DNA of 43,801 nucleotides, taken from contig JAGWSR010000007.1 of assembly GCA_028869385.1 (NCBI GenBank), forward strand, positions 1 through 43,801. The letters run 5' to 3'. The notes beneath the pieces are model-generated. The model was not told where the DNA came from and did no database searches. It saw nothing but the letters and a program-made list of their open reading frames with translations. Of this stretch, positions 26,143 to 43,801 are shown piece by piece (position 1 is the stretch's first letter; the number at the start of each line of letters is the position of its first letter). Position numbers and translations under genes: made by a program. Origin of the DNA: a bacterium (GTDB taxonomy: Bacteria; Vulcanimicrobiota; Vulcanimicrobiia; Vulcanimicrobiales; Vulcanimicrobiaceae).

Positions 26143-26196
26143 TAGGAGCTCATCGTGACACGGAGCGCTCATCGTGACATGGAGCGCGAGGCGCCG

Positions 26197-27534: not shown

Positions 27535-27606
27535 AATGCTCTCCAGGAAAAGTGCAAGGCCCGATGGTCCCCTCTCTCCCCATCTCCTGACCCGGTAAAA
27601 CCGAGC

Positions 27607-28197: not shown

Positions 28198-28481
28198 ATC
28201 CGTACGCGGTTAAGGGGCTCATCGCCGCGACCAGAAATGCGTTGCTCCTCTTCGTGGCGCTCTCGGCCGTCTTGTGCGGATCGTTGTACGCCTGGAAGAG
28301 CGCGATCGTGCCGCACCGCGAACGAGCGGGCGTGGTATGCGCCCCGTACGTCTCCACGCATCGCGCGTTTCACGCGTCGCCGCTCGAACGCGCACACGCC
28401 GACTGGGTTCCGGTGCGGCGTTTCGATAGCTGGACGGGCGAGATGGCCTACCTCTGCGAGCGCAGCGAGTCTCGTTCGTGA
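28194..28481 (+). CDS. Small single-pass membrane protein
   Basis: The product has 95 residues with one transmembrane helix (about 16-34) and a soluble tail containing two cysteines and a WVPVRRFDSW segment. It overlaps the tdk stop by four bases and the DnaJ-zinc-finger gene by four bases, so all three are probably one transcript. No family is recognised. Confidence 0.65.
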   Translation: MNPYAVKGLIAATRNALLLFVALSAVLCGSLYAWKSAIVPHRERAGVVCAPYVSTHRAFHASPLERAHADWVPVRRFDSWTGEMAYLCERSESRS

Positions 28482-30100
28482 GCATCCGCATGAGTGATCC
28501 TCACGACGAACAAGAGCATTTCATTCGCACGTTCGTTGCGGAGAACGTGCGAACGTCCGTGCCCTTTTCGGTCGGACAGACGACGGCTACACCGGTCGAA
28601 TTCGACATCTGGATGTATTGGAATCCGTTCGTTCGCTACCAAGACACCGTAAAGGCCGGTCGATTCGCGGGAGATTCCGAGAGCGTCTTTGTGGGGAACG
28701 AAGATGAGCTCGACCTGCTCGTGGAGGAGTACGTCGAAGCATTGCAGTCGCAGACCCCGACCTACGCGGCGGTCCATCGGGCGACGAGCGCGCTTCCCGA
28801 GTATGGTTTTCGGCACCAGGGCGAACTGAAAATTCGAGACGAACGACGGCACTTCGTCTGGATTCGTTCGTGTCATACCTGCGCAGGCCACGGAGAAGTC
28901 GAATGCAGGGACTGCGGAAGATCGGGTCGCGTATCCTGTACGCCCTGTAGCGGAAGCGGGCGTACCATGTGCACGCGCTGCGGAGGCATGGGCTATGTAA
29001 CGCGATACGAGACGCGGTACGTGGGCTCCCAATCGCAGAGCGTACAAGTTCGCGACAACTGCTCGTGCTATGGGGGGCGCGTGTCGTGTCTTCAGTGTAG
29101 CGGCAACGGCAAGGTGACGTGCGGGGTGTGCGGCGGACGCGGCTGGGTGCGTTGCCGCACCTGCGCGGGCACGGGGCTCCTTTCGACTATCCGAAGCATG
29201 TCGCTCGTCGCCGCTTCGCGGCACGAGTACGCCTTCGCACCCAACGAGACGCCGTTCGTCGCGAGCGTGCTTCGCCGCTACGCGCCCGCCGCATTGCCGA
29301 CGAGCACCTACCAAGGCTCGTGGCAGCCTCCCGCGTTTGACGTTGCCAACCACGTCGTCGCCTACGTGTTGCACGCCCAAACGCGATTTCTCTCTGCCGA
29401 CGTCGAGGTGAACGGCAACGTCTTTTCATTTCGAACGTTTGGCAAGACGCTTCATGTGGCCGATGGCGGCGGCCTCGTCGAGCACCTTCTCGAAGACGAT
29501 CGTCGCGAGCTCGTCAATACGGTTTCGCAAAGACTCGGAACAATCGTGCGGAACCCGTTGGGCTGGATTGCAACGCTTCTACGGGTGCAGCGAACGGCCG
29601 TCGCCTCGAAGATTAACGTCACACTCCTCGAGCGGGCTCACGGAAACCGCCACAGCGAGCATATCGCCCACAGCGTAACGGCCGAGTATCAGCGCGACGT
29701 GGTGCAATCGCTCGACCGAGGCTTTCGGCGCATACAGTCGCTCTTCTCCGCGAGCTTTTGGATCCTGGCCTATGCCCTCGTTGTGATGGCACTTGCACTC
29801 GATGCACAGAAGCTGCTTGCGATGCGCGCGAGCGCTCACACCCTTCACCTCGCCGTTCTCGACGCACCCTATACGATCGGCATCCTCGCCGCCGGCATCG
29901 TGGCGTTCACGTACCTGGTCTCTCGTATCGGACCGATCCTGCCGTTTGCCGATCGGAACGGATTGACGGGGCTGCGTTGCCTATCGCTCGTCCGCGGGGG
30001 CGTCCGTGCCAAGACGCTCCTCTCCGTTACGTTCCTCGCGTTAGCGCTCGCCGGCGCGTTCATCGCACACGCCGCGATCGCTCTGCTCAACGTGCGATAG
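28478..30100 (+). CDS. DnaJ-type zinc-finger membrane protein without J domain
   Basis: The product has about 540 residues. A region near 130-235 has seven CxxC pairs in CxxCxGxG-like repeats (CHTCAGHG, CTPCSGSG, CTRCGGMG, CLQCSGNG, CGVCGGRG, CRTCAGTG) plus a CSC segment, as in the zinc-binding domain of DnaJ. No HPD-containing J domain is present. About three transmembrane helices follow near the C terminus (WILAYALVVMALAL, IGILAAGIVAFTYLV, LLSVTFLALALAGAF). It may bind unfolded or thiol-rich proteins at the membrane; this is inference. GTG 28478 or ATG 28490 may be the start. Its last 60 bases overlap the hisD 3' end on the other strand. Confidence 0.8.
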   Translation: MSIRMSDPHDEQEHFIRTFVAENVRTSVPFSVGQTTATPVEFDIWMYWNPFVRYQDTVKAGRFAGDSESVFVGNEDELDLLVEEYVEALQSQTPTYAAVHRATSALPEYGFRHQGELKIRDERRHFVWIRSCHTCAGHGEVECRDCGRSGRVSCTPCSGSGRTMCTRCGGMGYVTRYETRYVGSQSQSVQVRDNCSCYGGRVSCLQCSGNGKVTCGVCGGRGWVRCRTCAGTGLLSTIRSMSLVAASRHEYAFAPNETPFVASVLRRYAPAALPTSTYQGSWQPPAFDVANHVVAYVLHAQTRFLSADVEVNGNVFSFRTFGKTLHVADGGGLVEHLLEDDRRELVNTVSQRLGTIVRNPLGWIATLLRVQRTAVASKINVTLLERAHGNRHSEHIAHSVTAEYQRDVVQSLDRGFRRIQSLFSASFWILAYALVVMALALDAQKLLAMRASAHTLHLAVLDAPYTIGILAAGIVAFTYLVSRIGPILPFADRNGLTGLRCLSLVRGGVRAKTLLSVTFLALALAGAFIAHAAIALLNVR

Positions 30101-31345
30101 ATCGAGCCTGATGGTCGCCGCGTTCGCGTGCGCGTCGAGCCCTTCGGCGCGTGCGATGATCTCCGCGTCGCGGATCATCCCGGGATCCACCGCGCCGCCC
30201 GCGCGTTCGAACGTGCGCACGGTGAGGAACGTGAGGACCGAGAGGCCCGAGCTGTAGCGCGCGCTGCCATTCGTGGGCAGGACGTGATTCGGGCCCGAGC
30301 CGTAGTCGCCGAAGACCTCGCCGACGGCGCCGCCGATAAAGAGCGTGCCGTACGTGCGGAGCTGTTCGGCAAGGGCTTCGGCCTGCGCGCCTTGCAGCGA
30401 GAGATGCTCGGGCGCGAGTGCATTGCAGAGTGCCGGAATCTCCGCGAGCGGTACGACGACGGCAGCGCCGTTTGCCGCGAGCGATGCGCGCGCGGTCTGT
30501 GCGGTGGAGAGCTCGTCGAGCTGACGTCGCACTTCGGCTTCGACGGCGTCCGCGAACGCGGCGCTCGGCGTGATGAGGATCGCGCGCGCTTGCGGATCGT
30601 GCTCGGCCTGGGCGAGGAGATCGGCCGCAACGATGCGCGCATCGGCATCGTCGGTCGCCGCGACCACGATCTCCGATGCTCCGGCGAGTGCATCGATACC
30701 GCACGCGCCGTAGACCGCGCGCTTGGCGGCGGTGACGTAAGCGTTGCCCGGACCGACGATGAGATCGACCTTTGGCACGAGCGCGGTACCGTAGGCGAGC
30801 GCGGCGATCGCCTGCGGTCCGCCGAGTTCATAGAGTTCCTCGATGCCGCAGAGTGCGGCGGCGGCGAGGATGACGGGTGTCACGCGCGGCGTGCACACGG
30901 CCCGCGACGCCACGCCCGCGACGCGCGCGGGAATGGCGCCCATCAGCAGCGATGAGGGCAACGGGTGACGCCCAGCGGGCACGTAGATGCCTACGCGCTG
31001 GATCGGAATGAGGCGATGCCCCATCACGATGCCGTGCGCTTCGAACGATAGATCGGCGAACGCGTCGCGCTGCGCCCGTGCGAAACGCTCGATGCGCTCC
31101 GCAGCGCGCGTGAGCGCGTCGCGCAGCGTCGGCTCGATGGCGTCGAGCGCCGTACGCATCTCGCTCGTGGGAACGCGGCGCGGAGCGGGGTCGCCGAAGC
31201 GCGCGGCGCACTCGGCGAGCGCGGCGTCGCCGGCCTCGCGCACGTGCGCGACGATCGCATCGACGTTCGGCAGCGCGCTCGTCATTTCGCGCGCGAGCAC
31301 CTCACGCGCGCCGACGCGCGCGAGCAACGCTTCGGTCTGATTCAT
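30041..31345 (-). CDS. hisD: Histidinol dehydrogenase
   Basis: HisD oxidises histidinol to histidine in two NAD-dependent steps. The 434-residue product has YVPAGRHPLPSSLLMGAIPA, VGPGNAYVTAAKRAVYG, the zinc- and substrate-binding QAEHDP and GPNHVLPT segments, and a typical C-terminal RLDL followed by about 17 extra residues. ATG 31345 overlaps the stop of the HisA-IE gene by four bases. It is the last gene of the his operon; its 3' end overlaps the convergent zinc-finger gene by 60 bases. Confidence 0.95.
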   Translation of the reverse strand: MNQTEALLARVGAREVLAREMTSALPNVDAIVAHVREAGDAALAECAARFGDPAPRRVPTSEMRTALDAIEPTLRDALTRAAERIERFARAQRDAFADLSFEAHGIVMGHRLIPIQRVGIYVPAGRHPLPSSLLMGAIPARVAGVASRAVCTPRVTPVILAAAALCGIEELYELGGPQAIAALAYGTALVPKVDLIVGPGNAYVTAAKRAVYGACGIDALAGASEIVVAATDDADARIVAADLLAQAEHDPQARAILITPSAAFADAVEAEVRRQLDELSTAQTARASLAANGAAVVVPLAEIPALCNALAPEHLSLQGAQAEALAEQLRTYGTLFIGGAVGEVFGDYGSGPNHVLPTNGSARYSSGLSVLTFLTVRTFERAGGAVDPGMIRDAEIIARAEGLDAHANAATIRLDLSHVEQSDRGVCDERAGER

Positions 31346-32568
31346 ACGGCCCTCGATGCGAGCTGTGCCATCACGTCGCCGACGCCGATTCCGGCGGCCT
31401 GCATCTTGACGGTCATGAAGTAGAGGAGATCCGCGCACTCCCACGCGACCTCATCGCGCGTGCGCGCCTCGACGACCTCGGCGGCCTCCTCGGCGATCTT
31501 CTCGGCGAGCAGCATGGGCTCGGCGAGCAGGCGGCGCGTGTACGAGCGCACGTCGCCCTGCGCGGCGCGCTCGGCGATGCGCCGCTGCAGCGTGCTCCAG
31601 TGAAAGCTTGGCTGGCCGAAGCACGTCGGCGCGCCGGTGTGGCAGGTTGGACCCTGCTGCTCGACGATGAACTGCAGCGCATCGCGATCGCAATCGAGCT
31701 CCACGCGCACCAGGCGCTGCGTAGCGCCCGAGGTTTCGCCCTTGCGCCATAGCGCTCCGCGACTGCGGCTGAAGTAGGTGCCGGTACCGTCACGCAGCGC
31801 CGCGCGCAGCGATTCCGGCGACGAATAGGCGAGCATGCGTGCGGTGCCGTCATCGAGATCGCTCACGATCGTGGGAATGAGGCCGTTCATCTTTGAGAAG
31901 TTCACGCAGGCGAGCAGCACCTCCACCGGATCGATGCGTCCGGTATAAATAGCCATACCCGCTTGCACGTCGATGCGCTCGCGGTCGAGGGCGACGATCT
32001 CTTCGACGCTCGCGACGCCGCCCGCAACGGTGAGCGCTCCGCCGATTTGCGCGCGCAGGCTGCGGGCGCGCTCCAGGTCGAGCCCGCCAAGCATACCTTC
32101 GCGCTCGATCTGCGTGAAGAGGAAGCCCGCGCACAGCGCTTCGAGCTCTCGCGCGCGCTCGAGCGGCGTTTCGTCGCTCGAGCGACGCCAGCCGTGCGTG
32201 GCAACCTTGCCGTCGCGTGCGTCGAGCGCCACGATGACGCGCTCGCGCGGGAGCTTTGCGAGCAACGCCGGCGTGGCCGCGGTGCCGATGATGAGTGACT
32301 GGGCGCCCGCGCGCAGGTAGCGGCGCGCGGTCTCGACGTCGCGGATACCGCCGCCGACGCGGCAACGCGCGCGCTTACAGAGCGCCTCGATGAGCGCGCG
32401 ATTCTCTCCCGTTCCGCGCGCCGCGTCGATGTCGATCACCGCGATCTCACCACAACGTCCGAAGCGATCCGCGAGTTCGAAGACGTCGTCGCGTTCGATC
32501 ACGAGGCGTTCGCCTTGCTGGAGTTGGACGGCCTTGTCGCCCACGATATCGATGCTGCTGACGATCAT
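31342..32568 (-). CDS. hisA: HisA-HisI-HisE fusion protein
   Basis: One 408-residue frame encodes three His enzymes. Residues 1-222 are HisA (ProFAR isomerase) with the catalytic aspartates in SSIDIVGD (Asp7) and ALDARDGKVATHGW (Asp116). Residues 226-318 are HisI (PR-AMP cyclohydrolase) with FSRSRGALWRKGETSG, DCDRDAL and GPTCHTGAPTCF. Residues 323-408 are HisE (PR-ATP pyrophosphatase) with AEKIAEEAAEVVEA and CADLLYF. HisIE fusions are common, but HisA fused to HisIE is not an arrangement I know. Steps two, three and four of the pathway are thus on one chain. It overlaps hisF and hisD by four bases each. Confidence 0.93.
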   Translation of the reverse strand: MIVSSIDIVGDKAVQLQQGERLVIERDDVFELADRFGRCGEIAVIDIDAARGTGENRALIEALCKRARCRVGGGIRDVETARRYLRAGAQSLIIGTAATPALLAKLPRERVIVALDARDGKVATHGWRRSSDETPLERARELEALCAGFLFTQIEREGMLGGLDLERARSLRAQIGGALTVAGGVASVEEIVALDRERIDVQAGMAIYTGRIDPVEVLLACVNFSKMNGLIPTIVSDLDDGTARMLAYSSPESLRAALRDGTGTYFSRSRGALWRKGETSGATQRLVRVELDCDRDALQFIVEQQGPTCHTGAPTCFGQPSFHWSTLQRRIAERAAQGDVRSYTRRLLAEPMLLAEKIAEEAAEVVEARTRDEVAWECADLLYFMTVKMQAAGIGVGDVMAQLASRAV

Positions 32569-33317
32569 GCGCGCACTCGCACGCCGCGCGCGGCGCAGTA
32601 GCTCTTGACCTCGGCGATGCGCAGCATACCGTCGTGAAAGACCGATGCGGCGAGCGCCGCGTCGGCACCGGCCGCATACGCCTCGGCAAATGACGCGAGA
32701 TCGCCCGCGCCGCCGGAGGCGACGATCGGCACGCGCAATGCCGCGCGCGCGGCGGCGAGCAGATCGGTGTCGAAGCCCCGCTGCGTGCCGTCGCGATCGA
32801 TCGAGGTGAGCAGCACTTCGCCCGCGCCGAGTTCCTGCGCTTGCAGCGCCCAGGCGATCGGGTCGCGTGGCACCCGCACGGCGGCGCTATGCGTGGCAAT
32901 CTCGTAGCCCGCGGGCGTGCGTCGCGCGTCAACCGAGATCACGACGCATTGAGTGCCAAAGCGCTCGGCCGCGCGCGTGAGCAGCGACGGATCGGCGACG
33001 GCCGCGCTGTTGATCGCCACCTTGTCGGCTCCGGCGTCGAGCAATCGCGCAACGTCGGCGACATCGCGTACGCCGCCGCCGACGGTGAGCGGAACGTCGA
33101 TGACGGCCGAGACGGCGGCGACCGTGTCATACGCGGAGGCACGGCGGTCGTTCGTCGCCGTCACATCGAGCAGCACGAGTTCGTCGACGCCCTGCGCGCA
33201 GTAGGTGCGCGCCGCCTCGACCGGATCGCCCGCATCGCGCAGCCCAAGAAAGTTGACGCCTTTGACGACGCGCCCGTTCGCAACGTCGAGGCAGGCGATC
33301 ACGCGCTTTGCAAGCAT
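32565..33317 (-). CDS. hisF: Imidazole glycerol phosphate synthase, cyclase subunit
   Basis: The 250-residue TIM-barrel cyclase works with HisH to make IGP and AICAR. It shows the catalytic RVIACLDVANGRVVKGVNF start (first Asp at residue 11) and DRDGTQRGFD (second Asp). The PVIASGGAG-like phosphate-binding segment reads PIVASGGAGDL. ATG 33317 is the family start; the gene overlaps hisH by 19 bases and hisA-IE by four. Confidence 0.95.
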   Translation of the reverse strand: MLAKRVIACLDVANGRVVKGVNFLGLRDAGDPVEAARTYCAQGVDELVLLDVTATNDRRASAYDTVAAVSAVIDVPLTVGGGVRDVADVARLLDAGADKVAINSAAVADPSLLTRAAERFGTQCVVISVDARRTPAGYEIATHSAAVRVPRDPIAWALQAQELGAGEVLLTSIDRDGTQRGFDTDLLAAARAALRVPIVASGGAGDLASFAEAYAAGADAALAASVFHDGMLRIAEVKSYCAARGVRVRA

Positions 33318-33913
33318 GCCGTCTCCTTCGCGAGCGCGACGAACGACGCGAGAAACGCGGCGCCGTACGCACCGCTTCGTTCGGGGTGGAACTGCGCGCC
33401 GAGGATGCCGTCGCGTCGCGCGATCGAGGCAAAGCATTCGCCGTCGAGTTCGGTGGTCGCCACGGTGCAACGGCTCGACGCCGGTGCCGCAAAGCCGTGC
33501 GCGAAGTAGGCCCATTGCGGCGCGCGCTCGCGCTCTTCGACGAGGTTCCATCCCATGTGCGGAAGGCGCGGCGCCGAGAGCGCGCGCACGACGCCGTCGA
33601 AGAGGGCGAGCCCGCGCGCGTTCGGCGCCTCGTCGCTGCGCTCGAAGAAGAGTTGAAAGCCGGCGCAGATGCCGAGGAGCGGAACGCCACGCTCCGCCGC
33701 GCGAACCAGCGGCTCGCGGAGCTGCAAACGGTCGAGTTCCGCGGCGATGTACGCGACGTTCGCTACGCCGGGAACCACGAGCGCGTCGCAGCGCTCGATG
33801 GCGTCGGGCGTGGTTACGAACGTCGTGCGCGCACCGCAGCGTTCGAGCGCCCGCGCGATGTTCGCGCGATTCGCGGCGCCGAGGTCGAGGATTCCGAGCG
33901 TTGGGCTACCCAT
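33299..33913 (-). CDS. hisH: Imidazole glycerol phosphate synthase, glutaminase subunit
   Basis: This 204-residue class I glutamine amidotransferase supplies ammonia to HisF. The nucleophile elbow is LLGICAGFQLFFE, with PHMGWN and the His/Glu pair in GAQFHPERSG. ATG 33913 follows the hisB stop by four bases. Its oxyanion-hole PGVANVAYI differs slightly from the usual PGVGAF. Confidence 0.95.
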   Translation of the reverse strand: MGSPTLGILDLGAANRANIARALERCGARTTFVTTPDAIERCDALVVPGVANVAYIAAELDRLQLREPLVRAAERGVPLLGICAGFQLFFERSDEAPNARGLALFDGVVRALSAPRLPHMGWNLVEERERAPQWAYFAHGFAAPASSRCTVATTELDGECFASIARRDGILGAQFHPERSGAYGAAFLASFVALAKETACLQSA

Positions 33914-33917
33914 GCGG

Positions 33918-34499
33918 TTAGAAGCATCCTTTGGTCGAAGCGATGGGGTCGGCGTTCGGGTCGAGCGCCCAAGCGAGCGCGCAGGCGCGTGCAAGGGCTT
34001 TGAACGCCGCCTCCACCACGTGGTGCGGATCGTCGCCCGCGAAGCGATCGATGTGAAGGGTCATGCGCGCGTGCTGGGCGAGGCTTGCGAAGAAGTGCGG
34101 CACGAAGACCGACTCGAGATCTTCGATGCGTTCGCAGCGAAGGTCGAGCGCGGTGCGCGACCAGGCGCGCCCGCCGAGATCCACGACGGCGCGCACCAGC
34201 GCGTCGTCCATGGGAATCGTGCGTTCCCCGTAGCGCACGATGCCGCGCCGCTCGCCGAGCGCCGCGTCGAGTGCCTGGCCGAGCGCGATCGCGGTATCCT
34301 CGACGAGGTGGTGGCGAATGCCGTCGAGCGAGCGCGCCTCGATGCGGCAGCCGATGCGCGCGTGGAACGCGAAGGCGAGAAGCAGATGATCGAACATGGC
34401 GCTGCCGGTTGAAATCGAGCGAGATTGCGCGTCGTCGAGCGAGAGTTCGACCGCGATATCGGTCTCGGTCGTGGTTCGTCGAATCGCTCCGCTACGCAC
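33918..34499 (-). CDS. hisB: Imidazoleglycerol-phosphate dehydratase
   Basis: This 193-residue single-domain IGP dehydratase has MFDHLLLAFAFHARI, the metal-binding HHLVEDTAIALGQAL, and late DDPHHVVEAAFKALARA. No N-terminal histidinol-phosphatase domain is present, so that activity must come from elsewhere. The GTG start overlaps the hisC stop by eight bases. Confidence 0.95.
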   Translation of the reverse strand: MRSGAIRRTTTETDIAVELSLDDAQSRSISTGSAMFDHLLLAFAFHARIGCRIEARSLDGIRHHLVEDTAIALGQALDAALGERRGIVRYGERTIPMDDALVRAVVDLGGRAWSRTALDLRCERIEDLESVFVPHFFASLAQHARMTLHIDRFAGDDPHHVVEAAFKALARACALAWALDPNADPIASTKGCF

Positions 34500-35583
34500 A
34501 GACGGCTCCTTGCAGCAATGCTTCGAGCGCGGTGACCACGCGCGTGGTGGTGCCGTCGTCGGCGGCGCAGAAGCGCAGCATCGTGGCGAGTTCGGGCGCG
34601 TCGTAGCCGCGAACGGCGATGCCGCGCTCGCCGAGCGCGCGCACGATGCGCGATGCGTCGGGTCCGAGGTCGGCGAGCAGAAAGTTCGCGGGCCCGCGCC
34701 AGATGGCGCGCGCCCCCGGGCGCAGGGATGCTTCGAGTGCGTCGAGGCTGCGGCGCACTTGCGCGCGCAGCGCTCGCTCGAACGCTGCCGTGGCCTCGCC
34801 GCCGCTCAGGTAGGCGTTGGCCGCGGCGAGCGAGGCGACGCCGATCGGATAGGGCCCGATGGAGCGGCGAAATGCGGCCGCGAGCCGCGCATCAGCTACC
34901 GCGTATCCCACGCGAGCGCCCGCGAGCGCGGCGCTCTTCGAGAGCGATCCGATCGCGACGACGTTCGGCTGTTCGGCGCAGACGCTGCCTACGAGCGAGC
35001 GATCCGAAAAGGCGAGGTACACTTCGTCGATGGCAATGAGGGTTCGCGGGAGCGCGGCGGCAATCGCGGCGATGGCTTCGACGCTCGGCGCATCGCCCGT
35101 CGGATTGTTCGGATTGCCGATGATGAGGAGTCGCGTGCGTTCGTCGGCCGCGGCTATCAGCGCCTCGGGATCGAGACTCCAGCGCTCGGCATACGCGACG
35201 TTGCGAATCTGCGCACCCGCGCATGCCGCGACGCGCGCGTACATGCCGAAGGTGGGCGTGGCGGTGAGCATCACGTCGCCGGGTTCGAGCACCGTGCGTG
35301 CCACCGCGTAGAGCAATTCGTCGGCTCCGTTGCCGAGCGCGAGTTGCGCGGGCTCGCATCCCAGGCGCCGCGCGAGGCTCTCGGCCGTCGCCCGCTGCAA
35401 CTCGGTCGGATAGGTGCGCAGCATCTCGCCGTCGAGCGCGCGCACCGCGTCGACCACGAAGGCGGGCACCGGCAGCGCCGCTTCGTTGCGGTGCATGCGC
35501 ACCTCGATGCCGCGGTCGTCGAGATCGCGCGCGGGATAGTCGGCGAGCGCGCGAATCGCGGGGCGAATCAGGTCTTCGATCAT
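34492..35583 (-). CDS. hisC: Histidinol-phosphate aminotransferase
   Basis: This 363-residue PLP enzyme of aminotransferase class I/II has LGNGADELLYA, NPNNPTGD, IDEVYLAF and the PLP-lysine segment SLSKSAALAGARVGY. It overlaps hisG by four bases upstream and hisB downstream. Confidence 0.95.
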   Translation of the reverse strand: MIEDLIRPAIRALADYPARDLDDRGIEVRMHRNEAALPVPAFVVDAVRALDGEMLRTYPTELQRATAESLARRLGCEPAQLALGNGADELLYAVARTVLEPGDVMLTATPTFGMYARVAACAGAQIRNVAYAERWSLDPEALIAAADERTRLLIIGNPNNPTGDAPSVEAIAAIAAALPRTLIAIDEVYLAFSDRSLVGSVCAEQPNVVAIGSLSKSAALAGARVGYAVADARLAAAFRRSIGPYPIGVASLAAANAYLSGGEATAAFERALRAQVRRSLDALEASLRPGARAIWRGPANFLLADLGPDASRIVRALGERGIAVRGYDAPELATMLRFCAADDGTTTRVVTALEALLQGAVCA

Positions 35584-36182
35584 CGCGTCACCAGCATCGC
35601 GAGATCGCTGCGGAAGATGACCTCGAGTACCTCAAGGTCCATCGCGTCGATAGTACTGCCGGTGAGCACGATGTCGATCATCACCTCCGCCATGCCGTAG
35701 GCGAGGGCGTTCTCGACCGTGCCGCTGATCGCAATCGGCTCGATGCTGCGTTCGGACGTGGCGAGGGTTGCTAGGTACTGCTGCGCGAGCGTGGGATAGC
35801 GCGCACAGTATGCGGCACGCACGACCCCGCGCTCCGCGAGCCGGTAGCCGCGCGGCGCGATTGCACAGAGCGCGGGTTTGCCGAAACGCGCGCGCGGGTC
35901 GTTCCAGGGGATCGTCACGACCCCCAGGCGCGGGTCGAGGCGATTTCCAGCCGCGAGCCATTCCTCGAGCAGATCGGATCCGGTATAGGCGACGACGTCG
36001 CGCCCCCGCCGGGCGAGGTCGCTTGCCAGCAGCGGAATATCCTCGCCTCGGGCGAGCGTGCGCTGCGCGTCGGCTTCGCCGGGGCGCGCGTCGTACGCGG
36101 CGGCGGCGGTCGCTGCGAGGCCTCGATTTTTCGGAAGGATCACGACCGCGCTTGCGGGGCGGTCGCTCACGGGCTGGTACAC
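35580..36182 (-). CDS. hisG: ATP phosphoribosyltransferase, short form
   Basis: HisG commits PRPP and ATP to histidine synthesis. The 200-residue product is the short form, which lacks the regulatory ACT-like domain and normally needs HisZ; no hisZ is in the window. It keeps the C-terminal SGTVENALAYGMAEVMIDIVLTGST phosphate-binding region. The GTG start at 36182 is preceded by GAAAGG. It is the first enzyme gene of the operon, 24 bases after the attenuator terminator. Confidence 0.92.
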   Translation of the reverse strand: MYQPVSDRPASAVVILPKNRGLAATAAAAYDARPGEADAQRTLARGEDIPLLASDLARRGRDVVAYTGSDLLEEWLAAGNRLDPRLGVVTIPWNDPRARFGKPALCAIAPRGYRLAERGVVRAAYCARYPTLAQQYLATLATSERSIEPIAISGTVENALAYGMAEVMIDIVLTGSTIDAMDLEVLEVIFRSDLAMLVTR

Positions 36183-36206
36183 GGCAAACCTTTCGGGCGA
36201 GAGAAC

Positions 36207-36244
36207 AAAAAAAGACGGGGTCGCGGTAATCGCGACCCCGTCTT
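36207..36244 (-). terminator. Attenuator terminator of the his operon
   Basis: On the minus strand AAGACGGGGTCGCG/CGCGACCCCGTCTT forms a perfect 14-bp stem with loop ATTAC (36226-36230), followed directly by T residues (seven in all, two within the stem). It stands between the leader peptide and hisG, so it must be bypassed for the operon to be expressed. Confidence 0.93.
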
Positions 36245-36308
36245 CGTGAGCTGAACAGCTACTTCGAACGCGTCAAACGATCATCCGCACGAGACCCTGC
36301 GGTCCGTG
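36240..36308 (-). promoter_or_regulatory. Mutually exclusive pause and antiterminator hairpins of the his leader
   Basis: Pause hairpin (1:2): CACGGACC (36301-36308) pairs with GGTCTCGTG (36288-36296), 8 bp with one bulged T, and includes the last His codon. Antiterminator (2:3): GTCTCGTG (36288-36295) pairs with CACGAAGAC (36240-36248), 8 bp with one bulged A. The second arm of the antiterminator shares AAGAC with the terminator's 5' arm, so the two cannot coexist. Confidence 0.85.
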
Positions 36309-36350
36309 ATGGTGATGATGGTGAACGACGTGCGCGAAGGCGTACGACAT
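36273..36350 (-). CDS. hisL: His leader peptide with six consecutive histidines
   Basis: A 25-residue frame begins MSYAFAHVV, continues with six consecutive histidines at residues 10-15 (seven His in all), and ends GPQGLVRMIV. His codons are a mix of CAC and CAT. It lies between a consensus promoter and a terminator before hisG, as in the classical his leader of enterobacteria. A ribosome stalled on codons 10-15 for lack of His-tRNA would cover the 5' arm of the pause hairpin and free the antiterminator; one reaching the stop codon would cover the shared arm and let the terminator form. The ATG is only nine bases after the -10 box, with no SD, so translation probably starts on a leaderless or nearly leaderless mRNA. 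Confidence 0.93.
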   Translation of the reverse strand: MSYAFAHVVHHHHHHGPQGLVRMIV

Positions 36351-36359
36351 AGTGGGCCC

Positions 36360-36389
36360 TTTATATCAGGAGGCTTCCGGTGCTGTCAA
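36360..36389 (-). promoter_or_regulatory. Sigma-70-type promoter of the his operon
   Basis: On the minus strand TTGACA (36384-36389), an 18-base spacer and TATAAA (36360-36365) match consensus closely. The expected start site is near A36353 to A36350, that is at or just before the ATG of the leader peptide. Confidence 0.88.
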
Positions 36390-36421
36390 CACTCCTCGTG
36401 TTAGGGATCGGCGATTTCGGA

Positions 36422-36427
36422 TACAAT
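36422..36427 (+). promoter_or_regulatory. -10 box of the antiporter gene
   Basis: TACAAT lies seven bases before the ATG at 36435, a spacing that would place the transcription start on or next to the start codon. No clear -35 is seen. Confidence 0.5.
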
Positions 36428-36434
36428 CAAGTCC

Positions 36435-37946
36435 ATGGCCATACCGTCGGGTAATCCGGCGCTCATCGTGGAACTCGGCGCCGTCTTTGTATTGGCGGCG
36501 GCGATCGTTGCGAGGACGCTCTCGCGTCGCGTGGGGATTCCATCCATTGTCACCCTGCTCGGGTTCGGTCTGCTCGCCGGGCCGAGCGGGATCGGACTCC
36601 TGCATCTCGACCTCATGTCGCCGGGGCCGCGCGCGCTGCTCTCGCTCGCCGTCGTGATCGTGCTCTTCGAAGTGACCCTGCGCGTGGATCTGCGCCATAC
36701 GCCGAAGGTGACGATCGGATTGCTCGCGGCCCTTGGCGCCGGGCTCGTGCTGTTGATCGTGCCGATCGTCGCCCGCTCGTTCGCATATCCTCCGCTCGTC
36801 GCGTCGCTGGTTGCCGCCATCTGCGTCGTCACGGGGCCGACGGTCATCGGGCCCTTGATGGCGCGCCTGCGCCCGCGCGCTGCGCTCGCCCATCTCCTCG
36901 AGACCGAAGGTCTGCTGCTCGATGCGATCGGGGTGATTATCGCCGCGGTGACGTTCGCATCGTTCACGACGCGCCCGACCGGCCCGATCGACGCAGCGTG
37001 GCACGCCGTCTTGCGCGTTGCCTTCGGCGTTGCGATCGGCATTGGATGCGGGTTCGCGGGGCGCTACCTGATGCGCGCGATGGTGCGGGCGTCGAGCGAT
37101 ATCGTCAAACTCGTGGTGTTGCTGCTGGGTATCGGCACCTACGCGCTCGCCGAATTGGTCTCGCACGAGAGCGGACTCTCCGCCGTCGTCGCGTGCGGGT
37201 TGCTCGTGGATCTCAAATCGCTGCCGCACGAGCGCCTGTTACGATCGTTCAAAGAAGACCTCTCGATGCTCGCGCTCTCGACGGTGTTCGTGCTGATGGC
37301 ATCGCAGATTCGCGTGCAGTTGCTCGGACCGCAACTGCTGCCCGCGCTCGGGATCGTGGCCACGCTCGTCGGCATCCGCGTCGTCTCCGTCCTGATCTCG
37401 ACGGTGCGAACGCCGATTCGTTGGGGCGAACGCGTGCTCATGGCGGCGGTGTTTCCACGCGGAATCGTGGCCGTTTCGCTCGCCATCTATTACGCGACGC
37501 AGATTCCCGCTTGGGGCTTGCACGGAGGAGATCGCCTCGCGGGCGTGATGTTCCTCGTTATCATCATGACGATCGTCATCTCGACCGTCGCCTCGGTCGT
37601 CGCGTCGCGGGCGTTCCGTCTGCAGATGCCCTCGCTCATCATCGCGGGGATTACCCCCGCCTCGATCGCGAGCGCGCAACGCCTGCGCGATCGAGGCCAC
37701 GTGCCGGTGCTCGTGGATACCGACGATGCCGTCGTCATGTTCGCGCGCTCCAACGATCTCGATGCCGAGTACGTCGAGAGCGGTGCCGATCTCAACGCGA
37801 TCGCGCGCGAGCGGAAGGCGCGCGCGATCATCGTGGAAGAGGCCGAGCGTTGGCGCGATGCGATCGCGACAATCCACGCTCGCTACCCGATCCTGCGCTC
37901 GGGATCCGACGAAGAACGTCGATTTTTCGAGGAGTACGCCTCGTAG
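36435..37946 (+). CDS. Cation:proton antiporter (CPA family) with TrkA-N-like C terminus
   Basis: This 503-residue membrane protein has about 12 hydrophobic segments. The second region has the NhaP/KefB-like GLLAGPSGIGLLHLD turn, and TGPTVIGPLM and LLETEGLLLDAIGVI carry the family's ion-site Asp/Glu residues. Residues from about 395 form a soluble domain resembling a TrkA-N nucleotide-binding fold (SLIIAGITPASIASAQRLRDRG, then VLVDTDD), although the glycine loop is not canonical. It probably exchanges Na+ or K+ for protons. It is divergent from the his operon and may be leaderless. Confidence 0.88.
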   Translation: MAIPSGNPALIVELGAVFVLAAAIVARTLSRRVGIPSIVTLLGFGLLAGPSGIGLLHLDLMSPGPRALLSLAVVIVLFEVTLRVDLRHTPKVTIGLLAALGAGLVLLIVPIVARSFAYPPLVASLVAAICVVTGPTVIGPLMARLRPRAALAHLLETEGLLLDAIGVIIAAVTFASFTTRPTGPIDAAWHAVLRVAFGVAIGIGCGFAGRYLMRAMVRASSDIVKLVVLLLGIGTYALAELVSHESGLSAVVACGLLVDLKSLPHERLLRSFKEDLSMLALSTVFVLMASQIRVQLLGPQLLPALGIVATLVGIRVVSVLISTVRTPIRWGERVLMAAVFPRGIVAVSLAIYYATQIPAWGLHGGDRLAGVMFLVIIMTIVISTVASVVASRAFRLQMPSLIIAGITPASIASAQRLRDRGHVPVLVDTDDAVVMFARSNDLDAEYVESGADLNAIARERKARAIIVEEAERWRDAIATIHARYPILRSGSDEERRFFEEYAS

Positions 37947-37952
37947 CCGTCG

Positions 37953-38306
37953 CTACTTGTGACGGTGGAGGATAAATTGATTGCGGTCGGGATCGCGGCC
38001 GAAGGCCATATAGCAGACGGCCGTTTCCGTGACCGCGTCGTCGTCGAAGGTGATCCCGCGCGCTTTGCACTCGGCCATCGCCGCGGCGACGTCATCCACG
38101 GCGAACATCACGCTCCCCGACTGCCCGCCGGTGTATCCGGCCGATGCGTAGAGCCCAAATGAGGTTCCGCCGGGGAAGGTCCACTCGCTGTAATATCCGT
38201 GCGCAGCGGCAGTCGGCGGCACGCCGAGGAGCTCGGCGTAGAAGGCGGTGGAGCGTTCGAGGTTGGTCACCGTGTAGTAGACGGCATCGATATCGCGTAC
38301 GTTCAT
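37953..38306 (-). CDS. VOC (glyoxalase/bleomycin-resistance fold) protein
   Basis: This 117-residue single VOC module has VYYTVTNLERSTAFYAELLGV at the start and VDDVAAAMAECKARG and DPDRNQFIL at the end. The usual metal ligands appear replaced (Tyr at the first histidine position, Gln near the last glutamate), so catalysis by the classical metal mechanism is doubtful. It converges on the antiporter gene. Confidence 0.85.
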   Translation of the reverse strand: MNVRDIDAVYYTVTNLERSTAFYAELLGVPPTAAAHGYYSEWTFPGGTSFGLYASAGYTGGQSGSVMFAVDDVAAAMAECKARGITFDDDAVTETAVCYMAFGRDPDRNQFILHRHK

Positions 38307-38361
38307 GCGCGCTCGTTCCGCGAGCGGCCGCCCCACCCTGCGGCACGGCTCGCGTACGTCG

Positions 38362-38715
38362 TCAGCGCTCGGGAAAGACGACGACGAACAGGTACGAACC
38401 CGCGACCGGCTTGCACTCGATCAACTCGGGCGTATAGGTCGCGCGCCGCGCGGCCTGCAGCGCTGCCAGATCGAGATCTTTGTTGCCCGTGCTCTCAAGG
38501 ACTTTATGCGTGGTGACGGTTCCTTCGGCCGAGATGTCGAGATGCAGCACGACCGTGCCGTGAGCGGGCGAGGTCTTGGTCGTCGGAAAATCGATTTTCG
38601 GAATATTCGACACGTCGACGGCCTTGTTCGGGACCGGACAGGTTGCGGCGGCAGCGGGTGCGCTCAGTGCGCCGGTCAACGCGGCGATGCATGCGTAGGC
38701 AATGACTGGTTTCAT
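38362..38715 (-). CDS. Exported TonB C-terminal-domain protein
   Basis: The product has 117 residues: signal peptide (cleavage after AAAA near residue 24) and one TonB_C module (GTVVLHLDISAEGTVTTHKVLESTGNKDLDLAALQAARRATYTPE-type pattern). It lacks an N-terminal membrane anchor and proline-rich stalk, so it is not a full TonB energy transducer. Two cysteines flank the domain. A divergent paralogue follows at 38881. Confidence 0.82.
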   Translation of the reverse strand: MKPVIAYACIAALTGALSAPAAAATCPVPNKAVDVSNIPKIDFPTTKTSPAHGTVVLHLDISAEGTVTTHKVLESTGNKDLDLAALQAARRATYTPELIECKPVAGSYLFVVVFPER

Positions 38716-38880
38716 CAGAGTCCCCTTTGCTTATGGAGGGTGCCAGCATACGTTCGAGCCGTGAAATCATCGTGAAGATGCACGGAACGATCCAACGATC
38801 GCGAGCGGCGGGAGGTCGACAAGCAATCTAGCGAACGTACTCTCACGCGAACATTGCTGCATCGGTGGAGGTTTAGTCAC

Positions 38881-39249
38881 ATGCGGATGTCATTGCGCCT
38901 TGCGGTACTCGCGAGCGTATTAGCGATTGTTGGGTGTGCGGGCCGTGAGGGAGGGGGGTGTACGTTCGTCGGTTCGCCCGCATCGCTCGTCGGGACGCCG
39001 CTTCCGCCCCAGGCAATTCCCTCCGGTAGCGGCATCACCACCGCCGTTACGGTAAGCGTTAGCGTCACGGTCGATTCAAATGGGGCGCTGACATCGGCAC
39101 AGATTCAACGCAGTTCGGGCGATATGGCGGTGGATGCGGCGGCGCTCGCGCTCGTTCGCACGCTCCATTATCAGGCTGGAACCCCGAGTTGCGGTTCGCC
39201 GGCGATCGACACAATCGTGGTGAGCGTGCCGTTTAGCCCGAGCGCGTGA
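38881..39249 (+). CDS. TonB C-terminal-domain lipoprotein
   Basis: The product has 122 residues with a lipobox (LAIVGC, Cys18) and a TonB_C-like module (VDSNGALTSAQIQRSSGDMAVDAAALALVRTLHY). It is related to the exported protein encoded divergently at 38362-38715. GGTGGAGG precedes ATG 38881. It is likely anchored to a membrane facing the periplasm. Function is unknown. Confidence 0.8.
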   Translation: MRMSLRLAVLASVLAIVGCAGREGGGCTFVGSPASLVGTPLPPQAIPSGSGITTAVTVSVSVTVDSNGALTSAQIQRSSGDMAVDAAALALVRTLHYQAGTPSCGSPAIDTIVVSVPFSPSA

Positions 39250-39346
39250 GGACGATGCCTGCGCTCGCGATAACCTAGGTTTTTATGCGGCAAATGCCTG
39301 CATACTCGAGGGAGGAGCATCGTAGCGGCACGTTCGACAACGTGAT

Positions 39347-41533
39347 ATGAAGCGAAAAGATGCCATCGTCACCATCGGCGCTACGGTCGTTGCCGGAGCT
39401 GCAGCGGTTGGCGCTGCGCCCGCGGCGGCGGCGCGTGCCGAAGCTCCGCACGCGATGCGCGCGCTGCTCGAACGGGTGGTGCCGAAGCTCTCGTCGCAAT
39501 TCTCACTGCGTCTCTTGCCCGCGCGCGACGATGGGCACGATGCCTTCGAAATCTCCGGATCGCGCGGGGCTGTGGATTTGGCTGGAACCAGCATCTCGGC
39601 GCTCGCTTGCGCGTTCAACTGGTACCTGAAAAACGACGCAGGCGGACAGATCACGTGGGCCGGTCGCAACCTGGAGATCGGTTCGGTCGCACCCGCGCCC
39701 ACGAAGGTGCGGCGCGCCACGCGCTTCGCGCGCCGCTACGTATTCAACGAAAACGTCTTCGGCTACAGCGTGCCGTACTGGGATTGGGAGCGTTGGGAGC
39801 GCGAGCTCGACGTGCTTGCGATCAACGGGTTCAACACGGCGATGCAGCAGATCGGCATGGAAGCGATCTGGCTCGATCTCTTCACCGAGTTCGGATACAG
39901 CGAAGAGGAGATGCTGAAGTGGATCGAACCGCCCGCGCATCAGAATTGGCAGTGGCTCGGGAACATTCAGGGCTCGCTCGGCGGCGTGTCGCGCGAGTTG
40001 ATCGATCGTCGCGTCGCATTTGGGCGCCGCATCATTCAGCGCATGTTCGATCTCGGAATCTCGCCCGTGTTTCCGGCGTTCGGCGGCTTCGTGCCCAGTG
40101 ATTTCGCGGAGCGCCATCGCGGCGCGCCGGTCGTGCCGCAAGGCGAATGGTACGGCTTCGAACGCCCGGCCTGGCTCGATCCCACGAGCGATCTCTTCGA
40201 GACGATGGCGGCGCACTTTTACGAGCATCTCCACGCGCGCTTCGGGTTGCCGGCGGGCTATAGCGTGAACGTGCTGCACGAAGGCGGCGTAGCGGGTAAC
40301 GTGGCTCTGCCGCAGGCGGGCAAAGCGATTCAAGACGCGATGCTGCGCGCGAACCCAAAGGCGTTCTGGCTCTTGCTCGCGTGGCAAGAGAATCCGCGTC
40401 GTGAAGTCGTGGAGAAGCTCGATCCCACGAAGCTCTTGATCGTGGACAGCGTGGCCGACGATCACGGACAGTGGCTGCAGAAGGATGCATTTTGGGGCAT
40501 TCCCTGGACCTGGGGCTATATCAACGACTACGGCAGCACCACGATTGCCGAAGGACGTCTCTCGGCAATCGCCCATCTGCTTCCCCAGGCCGAACGCCTC
40601 TCGCGCGCCTCGCGCGGCAACCTCGTGGGCGTGCACATCTACTCCGAGGGCATCGATCACAACCCGGTGATGTTCGATCTGCTGACCGATTCGGTGTGGC
40701 GCAGCGGTGACGTTGATTTGGCGAGTTGGCTGCGCGGATACGTGCGGCGGCGGTACGGGGCCGATGACCCGCACGCGGTTGAGGCCTGGGATATCTTCGC
40801 CCGCACGGCTTACGGTGAGCCCGAGCGCCCGGAAGAGGGAGGGCAACAATCCATTTTCAACGCGCAGCCTGCGCTCGATGCCAAGGGCGCAAGCCCGTTC
40901 ATCGACGCCGACTGGTTGTACGATCCGCACGAGTTCGAGCGCGGATGGCATAAATTGCTCGCCGCAGCCGATGCGCTGCGCGCGCACGATGGCTACCGTT
41001 TCGACGTGTGCGATATCACTCGGCAGGTGTTGGTGAATCGGGGGCGTCGCCTGCTTGGGCACATCCGCAGTGCCTATCGCCGCAAGAATTCCGATGCCTT
41101 CACCGCGCTGACGACCGAGTTTTTGCATCGGATGGACCAGTTGGACGAATTGCTCGGAACTCGCGTGGAGTTCATGCTCGGCCCGTGGATCGCATACGCG
41201 CGCGCATGGGGCGCGACCGATGCCGAGGCGGATCGATTGGAGTACGATGCGCGCACGATCATTACGACGTGGGGACCGGATCGCAAGACGTACGACGCAT
41301 TACGCGACTACGCGAATCGCGACTGGAGCGGCCTCATGCGTACGTTTTACAAAGATCGCTGGTCGCATTACTTCGGCTCGCTTCGAACCGCCCTCGAACA
41401 CGGAGCCGAACCAGAGCCGATCGATTGGTTCGAGCACGACCGCGCCTGGACGCTGCGGCGCGATCCCTACCCGACGGAGCCGCACGGCGACACGATCGCC
41501 GTAGCTCGCGCGATCGCGAAGGACGTTGCCTAG
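39347..41533 (+). CDS. Alpha-N-acetylglucosaminidase, GH89 family
   Basis: This 728-residue exported glycosidase related to human NAGLU removes terminal alpha-linked GlcNAc. After a signal-like N terminus (about residues 1-32) it has YWDWERWERELDVLAINGFNTA and the MEAIW and PVFPAFGGFVP segments matching the NAGLU catalytic domain. The likely acid/base is Glu312 (LHEGG) and the nucleophile Glu434 (YSEGIDHNP), corresponding to human Glu316 and Glu446 by motif. The three-domain length is normal. A CACGTT/AACGTG inverted repeat lies directly before the ATG (39329-39344). Confidence 0.9.
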   Translation: MKRKDAIVTIGATVVAGAAAVGAAPAAAARAEAPHAMRALLERVVPKLSSQFSLRLLPARDDGHDAFEISGSRGAVDLAGTSISALACAFNWYLKNDAGGQITWAGRNLEIGSVAPAPTKVRRATRFARRYVFNENVFGYSVPYWDWERWERELDVLAINGFNTAMQQIGMEAIWLDLFTEFGYSEEEMLKWIEPPAHQNWQWLGNIQGSLGGVSRELIDRRVAFGRRIIQRMFDLGISPVFPAFGGFVPSDFAERHRGAPVVPQGEWYGFERPAWLDPTSDLFETMAAHFYEHLHARFGLPAGYSVNVLHEGGVAGNVALPQAGKAIQDAMLRANPKAFWLLLAWQENPRREVVEKLDPTKLLIVDSVADDHGQWLQKDAFWGIPWTWGYINDYGSTTIAEGRLSAIAHLLPQAERLSRASRGNLVGVHIYSEGIDHNPVMFDLLTDSVWRSGDVDLASWLRGYVRRRYGADDPHAVEAWDIFARTAYGEPERPEEGGQQSIFNAQPALDAKGASPFIDADWLYDPHEFERGWHKLLAAADALRAHDGYRFDVCDITRQVLVNRGRRLLGHIRSAYRRKNSDAFTALTTEFLHRMDQLDELLGTRVEFMLGPWIAYARAWGATDAEADRLEYDARTIITTWGPDRKTYDALRDYANRDWSGLMRTFYKDRWSHYFGSLRTALEHGAEPEPIDWFEHDRAWTLRRDPYPTEPHGDTIAVARAIAKDVA

Positions 41534-41537
41534 GCCG

Positions 41538-41816
41538 CTATTTGGGCTTCCCAAGCATGACGACGACGCCGTGAACGATTGAAACCTTGACGGTCTCACC
41601 GGCGGTGAGTTTGTCGAAGAGAATCGCTTCGCGGTCGGTGGTCAACGACGTGTCGAGACCGTTGTCGAGCTTCACGACGATGTTCTTCGCGTCAACGACC
41701 GCCCGCACGTGGACGACGTAGGTGCCGTCGGGAATGAGCTTGGGGTTGATAATCGTCGCTGCGTGCGCGAGACCCGTCATCGCGAGAAACATGGCTGCGG
41801 CGATCCATCGGCGCAT
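41538..41816 (-). CDS. Small exported protein of unknown function
   Basis: The product has 92 residues: signal peptide (MRRWIAAAMFLAMTGLAHA) and a short beta-rich domain (YVVHVRAVVDAKNIVVKLDNGL, ETVKVSIVHGVVVML). AAGGATT precedes the ATG. It converges on the GH89 gene, ending four bases from it. No family is recognised. Confidence 0.7.
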   Translation of the reverse strand: MRRWIAAAMFLAMTGLAHAATIINPKLIPDGTYVVHVRAVVDAKNIVVKLDNGLDTSLTTDREAILFDKLTAGETVKVSIVHGVVVMLGKPK

Positions 41817-41964
41817 CTTCGAATCCTTCTCCCTATGAAGTGTGATGAGGCAGAGCCCCCTCTACTCTAGGAGAGAAGTATTTTCTCAAGATTTGCGATT
41901 TGTTATGGGAGCTTTAGGACGCAGCGTGCGAAGTGGCCGAGGCGCTTAACTGCAGGTCATACGC

Positions 41965-42252
41965 CTAGTGTGAAATGACGTGAATCCATCCGAGCGTGCC
42001 CATCACCGCGCCTAACAGCATCATTACGAAAGGTCCGGCCCAAGCGCGTTCTTCATCCGGACGTGGCGACGCAAACAGCTCCGAACGACTGCGGATGGGG
42101 ATCCGTGCGATCGTCAGCACCCAAGGCTGCGTAGCGGCATCATTGGATGCGACGCTCATGCGCGCGTAGGTCATGAGAGCGCCGAAGAGCGCCATGCCTG
42201 TACCGAAGAACGCTGCAAGCCAATTCGCCACGATGTTCATGCCATCGAACAT
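41965..42252 (-). CDS. Small two-helix membrane protein
   Basis: The product has 95 residues with hydrophobic helices at about 7-28 and 74-92 separated by a polar stretch. It is divergent from the sensor-like gene at 42324. Two in-frame ATG codons near the start leave the exact N terminus open. Function is unknown. Confidence 0.6.
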   Translation of the reverse strand: MFDGMNIVANWLAAFFGTGMALFGALMTYARMSVASNDAATQPWVLTIARIPIRSRSELFASPRPDEERAWAGPFVMMLLGAVMGTLGWIHVISH

Positions 42253-42323
42253 TGGACAAGCTCGATACCGCTTCCGCCGCCGCGATCGGCGGGTTGAATG
42301 CGAGCCGCGACGAAATCGGCGTC

Positions 42324-43801
42324 ATGAGCGACTCGGGTAAGAAGGTGACGCGCCTGTTGCTGCCTGCCTTCGCGCTGCTTTGGCTTGCGATGGTCCTGGT
42401 CGTTGAGATCGGACCGGACGCGTATCATCCGCCGTTCGAACTTGCCAAGCGTAATGCGCGGGGTTCGACGGTTACGAAGGCTAGCCCCGAGTTGCAAGCA
42501 CTCGGGATCGTGCCGGGGGCCCACATTCGCGTGGATCGCATCCCGTGGGCAGACGGCATACGGCTGATCTACGCGCCCAAGGGCGCGCTCGTAAACGTAC
42601 CCCTGGAGACGCCATCAGGAATTCGAATGGTTGCCGTTCGCGCAACGGTCCCGCGCGTGTCTGGGCTTTCGAATCGGATCTTTGCCGTGCTGTCGGCGGC
42701 ATTCGCGCTCCTGCTCGTCGCCTATCTCGGATATCGGCGCCCGAGTGGGATGGTGTTCGCGTTGATGCTCTTCATCGGCGGCGGCGGCTTGAGCTGGTCA
42801 TCGTTTGCCGCGCAGATCTCCTGGATGCCGGCGGCGGCGTTCACGGTTGTCGCGTGGGTGCTGCGCGATCTCTGCAATATCTTTCCGGTATTGGTGCTCG
42901 CGTCATGTGCGATACGCTTGCCCGGAACCGCGCCTTCGCCGCAGCGCACCCGCGCAATACGCGTCGTGGATGGAATCGTCGTTGCGGGGTTCATGCTTGA
43001 CGTTTTTGCCGAGAAATCGTCGATTGCTTATGCCGTGATGTGTGGGCTGTGGGCGCTCGTGCTGCTTGGCGCGTCCTTGCTCTCGTTGCGGCTGGCGCAA
43101 GCCGAAGATCGCGCTCGCGTCGGCATCGTCTTTGGTGCGATCATGATCGGCGGCGTCGGCTATGCCGTAACGATGATCTCGTTCGTGTTAGGCATCTTAC
43201 CGTTCACTTTCTTCTTGGTATACACGACACTGTCGATCGACTTGATTCCGATTGCCGTGGCCTACGCGATCCTCAAGCATCGAGTCTTCGACGTTGAGTT
43301 CGTTCTGAATCGCACGGTTGTCTACGCATTGACTTCGGCGATCCTGCTCCTCATGTTTGCCGCCCTCGAGTTTTTTGCCGAGCGCTCAATCCTGGCGCTC
43401 ACGCGAGTCGAGAGCACGATCGTGGAGTTCATCATCGTCCTCGTCGTCGTCGTCAGCGCGCGGCTGGTGCACACGCGAGTGGACCGAGCCGTCGATACGA
43501 TCCTGTTCCGTACCCGACATGCGCAGGAAGTGGCCCTGGCCAGATACGCGACGACGGCCCAGTTCTATACCGCGGCGCAGCCGCTCGTACGAGACACGAT
43601 GGATGTTGTTGTTGAAAATGCGTGTGTGAACGGAACCGCCGTGTATTTGCTGACGAACGGTGCGTTCATGAAAGCGGGATCATCGTGGGTGGAAGCGCCC
43701 GCGGAGATTGAAGAGAACGACGCTGCTTTAACCGATATGCGGGCGCACCAGGAGCCGCGGGATCTCCATGCTTCAACGACGGCCTTGCCGGGCGCGCGTG
43801 C
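42324..43801 (+). CDS. PDZ/multi-transmembrane sensor with GAF-like region, 3' end missing
   Basis: The frame is open from ATG 42324 to the last base (492 codons seen), so the C terminus is outside. An N-terminal helix is followed by a PDZ-like periplasmic segment (ELQALGIVPGAHIRVDRIPW), then about eight transmembrane helices. A segment HRVFDVEFVLNRTVVYALTSA and RLVHTRVDRAVDTILFRTRH are typical of membrane sensors linked to GAF, histidine-kinase or phosphatase outputs. The last visible residues (DTMDVVVENACVNGTAVYLL) look like the start of a GAF domain. Output is unknown. No SD is seen, and TTG 42294 is an alternative start. Confidence 0.8.
   Translation, partial: MSDSGKKVTRLLLPAFALLWLAMVLVVEIGPDAYHPPFELAKRNARGSTVTKASPELQALGIVPGAHIRVDRIPWADGIRLIYAPKGALVNVPLETPSGIRMVAVRATVPRVSGLSNRIFAVLSAAFALLLVAYLGYRRPSGMVFALMLFIGGGGLSWSSFAAQISWMPAAAFTVVAWVLRDLCNIFPVLVLASCAIRLPGTAPSPQRTRAIRVVDGIVVAGFMLDVFAEKSSIAYAVMCGLWALVLLGASLLSLRLAQAEDRARVGIVFGAIMIGGVGYAVTMISFVLGILPFTFFLVYTTLSIDLIPIAVAYAILKHRVFDVEFVLNRTVVYALTSAILLLMFAALEFFAERSILALTRVESTIVEFIIVLVVVVSARLVHTRVDRAVDTILFRTRHAQEVALARYATTAQFYTAAQPLVRDTMDVVVENACVNGTAVYLLTNGAFMKAGSSWVEAPAEIEENDAALTDMRAHQEPRDLHASTTALPGAR

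Follow-up and report, generated by a model that had tools for sequence, protein, structure and literature searches.

The his operon and its occurrence in the phylum

The window, a 43.8-kb contig from a genome totalling 3.08 Mb and the whole stretch of DNA analysed here, carries on its minus strand a histidine operon with the gene order hisG-hisC-hisB-hisH-hisF-(hisA-hisIE fusion)-hisD, assigned from profile matches, downstream of a leader region. The operon product, histidine, is the same amino acid as that specified by the control codons of the leader. The host lineage is the uncultured phylum Eremiobacterota (WPS-2/Vulcanimicrobiota), and the closest named relative of the window hisG is in a Candidatus Eremiobacterota metagenome-assembled genome (81% identity over 200 residues). 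The operon contains:

35580–36182, minus strand: hisG, divergent short-form ATP phosphoribosyltransferase of 200 aa (PF01634, 48.6 bits; cut-off 25.5)
34492–35583, minus strand: hisC (TIGR01141, 220.6 bits, under the equivalog cut-off of 276.55)
33918–34499, minus strand: hisB, IGP dehydratase (PF00475)
33299–33994, minus strand: hisH, glutamine amidotransferase (PF00117; name assigned from operon position)
32565–33317, minus strand: hisF (TIGR00735, 305 bits; start set with the domain start)
31342–32568, minus strand: hisA-hisIE fusion, one 408-aa ORF (PF00977, PF01502 and PF01503)
30041–31444, minus strand: hisD (TIGR00069, 423.7 bits; listed ORF start probably too far upstream)

The hisG gene starts with GTG at 36182. 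Its product scores 50.4 bits against TIGR00070, under the equivalog cut-off of 75.75, and the solved structures nearest to it are all ATP phosphoribosyltransferases. A second, more distant HisD homologue is encoded elsewhere in the genome (G000:C34:132804–133913; 244.7 bits).

Among 149 Eremiobacterota genomes, eight encode the divergent HisG and about 55 an ordinary short HisG. The divergent-HisG operon and its leader occur at nine loci in eight genomes of five genera (g1, g31, g51, g52 and g13), with the window's subgroup comprising six sequences (g1, g31 and g52) and the other subgroup comprising G086 and two copies in G112 (g51 and g13). The HisA-HisIE fusion is kept in g1, g31 and g52; in g51 and g13 only a HisIE match lies 3′ of hisF, with a HisA match absent at that position, and a PHP-type ORF, possibly histidinol-phosphatase-like as judged by eye, is located between hisB and hisH (L055:4250–5450; L053:2600–3700). 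One of the two attenuated hisG copies of G112 (contig C81, L056:6478–7236) has a frame that, read from the start chosen, ends after 26 codons and could be a pseudogene or reflect mixed strains or an assembly error. Many well-completed genomes among the 149 lack a match to HisG or HisD, which suggests either that histidine auxotrophy is widespread or that the genes are very divergent.

The leader region

The features of the leader region, from the promoter to the end of the U-tract, are:

36384–36389, minus strand: -35 box, TTGACA (TTGACA or TTGACG at eight of the nine loci)
36360–36365, minus strand: -10 box, TATAAA, with TGA directly 5′ (extended -10; TGnTATA at all nine loci)
36351–36359, minus strand: 9-nt gap between the -10 box and the leader ATG; start site expected at or a few nt from the ATG
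36273–36350, minus strand: His leader peptide ORF, MSYAFAHVVHHHHHHGPQGLVRMIV (His-run leader at nine loci)
36306–36323, minus strand: six consecutive His codons, the putative control codons (CAY ×6)
36288–36308, minus strand: predicted pause hairpin P1, beginning at the last His codon
36272–36282, minus strand: 5′ strand of predicted antiterminator AT2 (GATCGT, GAC), over the final leader codons and the stop codon (consensus and stalled-ribosome folds)
36240–36248, minus strand: 3′ strand of the first-proposed antiterminator AT1, CACGAAGAC, pairing with 36295–36288; a weaker alternative in the window's genus
36228–36236, minus strand: 3′ strand of predicted antiterminator AT2, GTCGCGATT, common to the terminator 5′ arm and loop (consensus and stalled-ribosome folds)
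36212–36244, minus strand: intrinsic terminator hairpin, 36244–36231 with 36225–36212, 14 perfect pairs
36207–36213, minus strand: U-tract and predicted termination point (sequence and terminator scan)

A preliminary description of this DNA had proposed a TTGACA-18-TATAAA promoter on the minus strand, a leader of 25 codons, seven of them for His, a pause hairpin and a perfect 14-bp terminator with a U-run 24 nt before hisG, and all of these are present as described. The promoter is conserved across the loci and has an 18-nt spacer whose last bases are TGA; a consensus promoter scan gave no match at this position because it demands a T at the final -10 position. At all nine loci the -10 box ends 9–12 nt before the leader ATG. 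The usual distance from a -10 box to the start site is 5–9 nt, so the 5′ end of the leader RNA is expected 0–7 nt upstream of the ATG. No conserved Shine-Dalgarno sequence precedes the leader ORF across the nine loci, unlike hisG, which has GAAAGG- or GGAG-type ribosome-binding sites at most of them. With the start site so placed, the leader ORF is probably leaderless. A leader ORF without a 5′ leader is known in S. meliloti trpL (PMC7298713). A strict promoter-ATG pattern has one further match in the genome (G000:C62:4784–4822; L151, near 1501–1540), preceding a small zinc-ribbon-like ORF (FmdB-like, by eye) that is a probable further leaderless start.

The leader ORF runs from an ATG at 36350 through 25 codons to a stop, and six of its seven His codons are consecutive. 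It is the window's single CAY ×6 run, and 100 dinucleotide shuffles yield none; a phylum-wide search for CAY ×5 was too noisy to use as a locator. Hairpin P1 pairs 36308–36301 with 36296–36293 and 36291–36288 (8 bp with one bulged U), is paired in 100% of cells across the g1, g31 and g52 sequences, six in number, and shows compensatory change at two pairs; the terminator likewise has compensatory changes at two pairs. The upstream alignment that had been suggested as a check thus returns a conserved His run at all nine loci and covariation in both hairpins. The leader RNA folds with -65.6 kcal/mol (z = -5.5 relative to shuffles), and a site scan of positions 26000–43801 finds seven terminator-like sites, of which that of the leader is by far the longest (15 pairs versus 5–6).

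At all nine divergent-HisG loci, hisG is preceded by a TGnTATA promoter, an ATG, an unbroken run of four to six His codons and a terminator. When these loci are used to build a covariance model (R1), its matches at E≤1e-20 among the 149 genomes are the nine themselves and no others; the weaker matches that were read, including those in G024, G061, G017, G006, G088 and G018, are bare terminators or chance matches with no His leader. No His-run leader is present in flanks of up to 1.5 kb on either side at about 45 ordinary-HisG loci; in clusters with hisZ before hisG these flanks sometimes stop short of the region upstream of the whole cluster, and there the genome-wide R1 search provides the coverage. 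The relatives with an ordinary-HisG cluster (~55) thus appear to be without the attenuator, which in these data tracks the divergent-HisG operon type without exception. Relatives that keep hisG without the His run and terminator, which the preliminary description took as counting against an attenuator, do exist as hisZ-type genomes with a different his cluster, and every relative of the divergent-HisG type keeps the element. The presence of the operon in this clade is consistent with either horizontal acquisition or loss elsewhere.

These observations also bear on two readings in which attenuation plays no part. One takes the hairpin as a constitutive terminator or processing site, with an incidental His-rich ORF and another promoter driving the operon, and similarly strong terminators do occur elsewhere in these genomes; however, we find it scarcely credible, because the combination of His run, its placement ahead of the hairpin, promoter and terminator is conserved only before the divergent-HisG operon (9/9) and was not found in relatives whose his cluster is of the other type, and because the CAY ×6 run is unique in the window. 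The other has the His-rich leader acting through translation, or in the form of a peptide or small RNA that might, for instance, bind metal or histidine. A His6 peptide could bind metal. Trans action is known for leader peptides and attenuator RNAs (S. meliloti peTrpL and rnTrpL; PMC7298713), but this reading is very improbable given that the terminator and U-tract end (36207) 24 nt before the hisG start, that hisG has its ribosome-binding site (GAAAGG) clear of the hairpin, and that a His run and a terminator are retained across loci that differ in peptide sequence and His count. Very probably the hisGCBHF(A-IE)D operon is under a ribosome-mediated transcription attenuator whose signal is the supply of charged tRNA-His. 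The proposal in the preliminary description, a His-leader attenuator ahead of short-form hisG in what looked like a distant lineage, is supported at nine loci in five genera.

Candidate antiterminator helices

Within such an attenuator two helices could act as the antiterminator. In AT2, positions 36282–36277 and 36274–36272 pair with 36236–36228, the 5′ strand coinciding with the three final codons of the leader and its stop codon. It is the best helix between leader and terminator arm common to all six sequences of g1, g31 and g52, with 96.3% of cells paired compared with 12–44% when slid. In g31 it has a compensatory change (U-A to C-G) together with a C-G to U-G change, a covariation that comes from this single lineage and of which part may also serve the terminator. 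RNAalifold predicts P1 and AT2 for the six sequences when the transcript ends before the terminator 3′ arm, and P1 and the terminator for a longer transcript; of the stems that all six share in this comparison, the longest is part of AT2. Folds of the window with a ribosome stalled at each of the six His codons favor AT2 over AT1 by 1.5–8 kcal/mol.

The helix put forward in the preliminary description, AT1, pairs 36295–36288 with 36248–36240, and its use in the window would require the same attenuator to work by the ribosome blocking the 5′ arm of P1. Sequences of the window's genus do contain this pairing (in the window, 8 bp and one bulged A), it outperforms AT2 in G002 when the ribosome is on the last two His codons, and a helix at its position is strong in G086 and G112. 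Within the window's subgroup, however, it is confined to that genus and not kept in g31 and g52, has 72.9% of cells paired with no compensatory change, and is neither the more stable helix in the window nor the choice of RNAalifold, and we regard it as an unlikely working antiterminator there. The competing-structure folding proposed as a check thus returns P1 and the terminator as anticipated, with AT2 preferred to the helix originally named.

AT2 is therefore the better-supported predicted antiterminator in g1, g31 and g52. Complementarity between the 3′ part of the leader and the terminator arm does not exceed that of shuffles in any of these six sequences (p 0.24–0.91), so the case for AT2 rests on its conservation and the one compensatory lineage. 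Such complementarity does exceed shuffles (p≤0.005) in G086 and in the two G112 copies, where an AT1-like helix is strong (CGGCUCUGUGCG:CGCACGGAGCCG in G086; CCCGUGC:GCACGGG in G112) and is the likely antiterminator of g51 and g13. Each subgroup seems to have an antiterminator of its own, a split that coincides with the presence (g1, g31 and g52) versus absence (g51 and g13) of the HisA-HisIE fusion. Because the completed terminator is far more stable than AT2, a switch between them must be kinetic.

Proposed regulation and relation to known systems

In the proposed mechanism, RNA polymerase would start a few nt 5′ of the leader ATG, and the leader would be translated, probably as a leaderless ORF. 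With ample His-tRNA the ribosome would pass the six His codons and reach the stop codon, covering the AT2 5′ strand (36282–36272); this would let the 14-bp terminator form and end transcription near 36207. With little His-tRNA available the ribosome would stall on the His codons and leave the last leader codons free to pair with the terminator 5′ arm (36236–36228) before the 3′ arm is made, such that the terminator is pre-empted and the his operon transcribed. If the leader is not translated, the His-codon region could pair with the last leader codons, freeing the 5′ arm and favoring termination, although this pairing is only partly conserved. P1 is placed where it could pause the polymerase, and both outcomes of the switch, like the response to histidine, are predictions from the arrangement of these parts.

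The short-form HisG of this operon has no HisZ partner. No HisZ gene was found in the window's operon or genome, and none of the eight attenuator genomes, one of which is only 74% complete, reaches the HisZ cut-off (best 189 versus 271.65 bits); this best match was read as a histidyl-tRNA synthetase. The cut-off is reached in 41 of the 149 genomes, mostly with hisZ adjoining hisG. By itself, HisGS is reported to turn over slowly and to be histidine-insensitive, with activation and feedback conferred by HisZ (PMC10795190), and attenuation may replace the lost feedback inhibition of a HisZ-less HisG. A broader proposal, which we advance tentatively and judge slightly less than evenly probable, is that the divergent HisG has lost histidine feedback because it works without HisZ, that the leaderless-ORF attenuator is the main control, and that two antiterminator designs evolved under one type of leader peptide, one using a strand at the stop codon (g1, g31 and g52) and the other a strand of the pause hairpin (g51 and g13). 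The attenuator with HisZ-less HisG on one side, and the hisZ-type clusters without a detected attenuator on the other, provide a natural test of whether control at the gene level takes the place of feedback on the enzyme.

For gamma-proteobacteria, His attenuators of the same logic are established knowledge, and others have been predicted in Firmicutes (PMC9413887, PMC2965389), the latter including the B. cereus group, Peptostreptococcaceae and Erysipelotrichales (PMC9413887) and hisZ/hisS* in bacilli (PMC2965389). No earlier description of His attenuation in Eremiobacterota was found in the open-access literature (subscription papers lay outside the search), in agreement with the novelty claimed at the outset. 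Rfam scans at gathering and permissive thresholds gave no relevant match for the element, a weak BcKCsr7 match (22.8 versus 59 bits) being disregarded, and the His_leader model RF00514 stays below its gathering score (best 28.9 versus 49 bits, in G001), although the same model recognises the E. coli his leader. The enterobacterial logic first suggested for the window holds in principle, but the element is not the enterobacterial one, given this RF00514 score and a leader ORF that looks leaderless. The principle of attenuation is textbook; what is new is its occurrence in Eremiobacterota, with the probable leaderless start, the alternative antiterminator and the HisZ-less HisG as details. Ribosome-mediated histidine attenuation is thereby extended to an uncultured phylum, which fits the view that control by leader peptides has arisen, or has spread, widely.

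The closest parallels differ in several respects. Like hisL of E. coli and Salmonella (RF00514), the element has a run of His codons, a predicted pause hairpin, and a terminator with a predicted antiterminator that would exclude it, all before hisG; unlike hisL, its leader ORF is probably leaderless, the predicted antiterminator strand lies over the leader stop codon, hisG is of the short form, and the gene order is G-C-B-H-F-A/IE-D. It shares with the Firmicutes His leaders (3–5 consecutive His codons) a His run with terminator and predicted antiterminator before his genes and a patchy occurrence among relatives regulated otherwise, but it belongs to a different phylum, has 4–6 consecutive His codons, and no HisZ was found in its operon or genome. 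As in S. meliloti trpL/rnTrpL (PMC7298713), the leader ORF is probably at the RNA 5′ end and is followed by a predicted attenuation terminator, with His rather than Trp codons and a start site that is mapped there and inferred here; the conserved, probably leaderless start offers a simple setting in which to study attenuation that does without a Shine-Dalgarno sequence.
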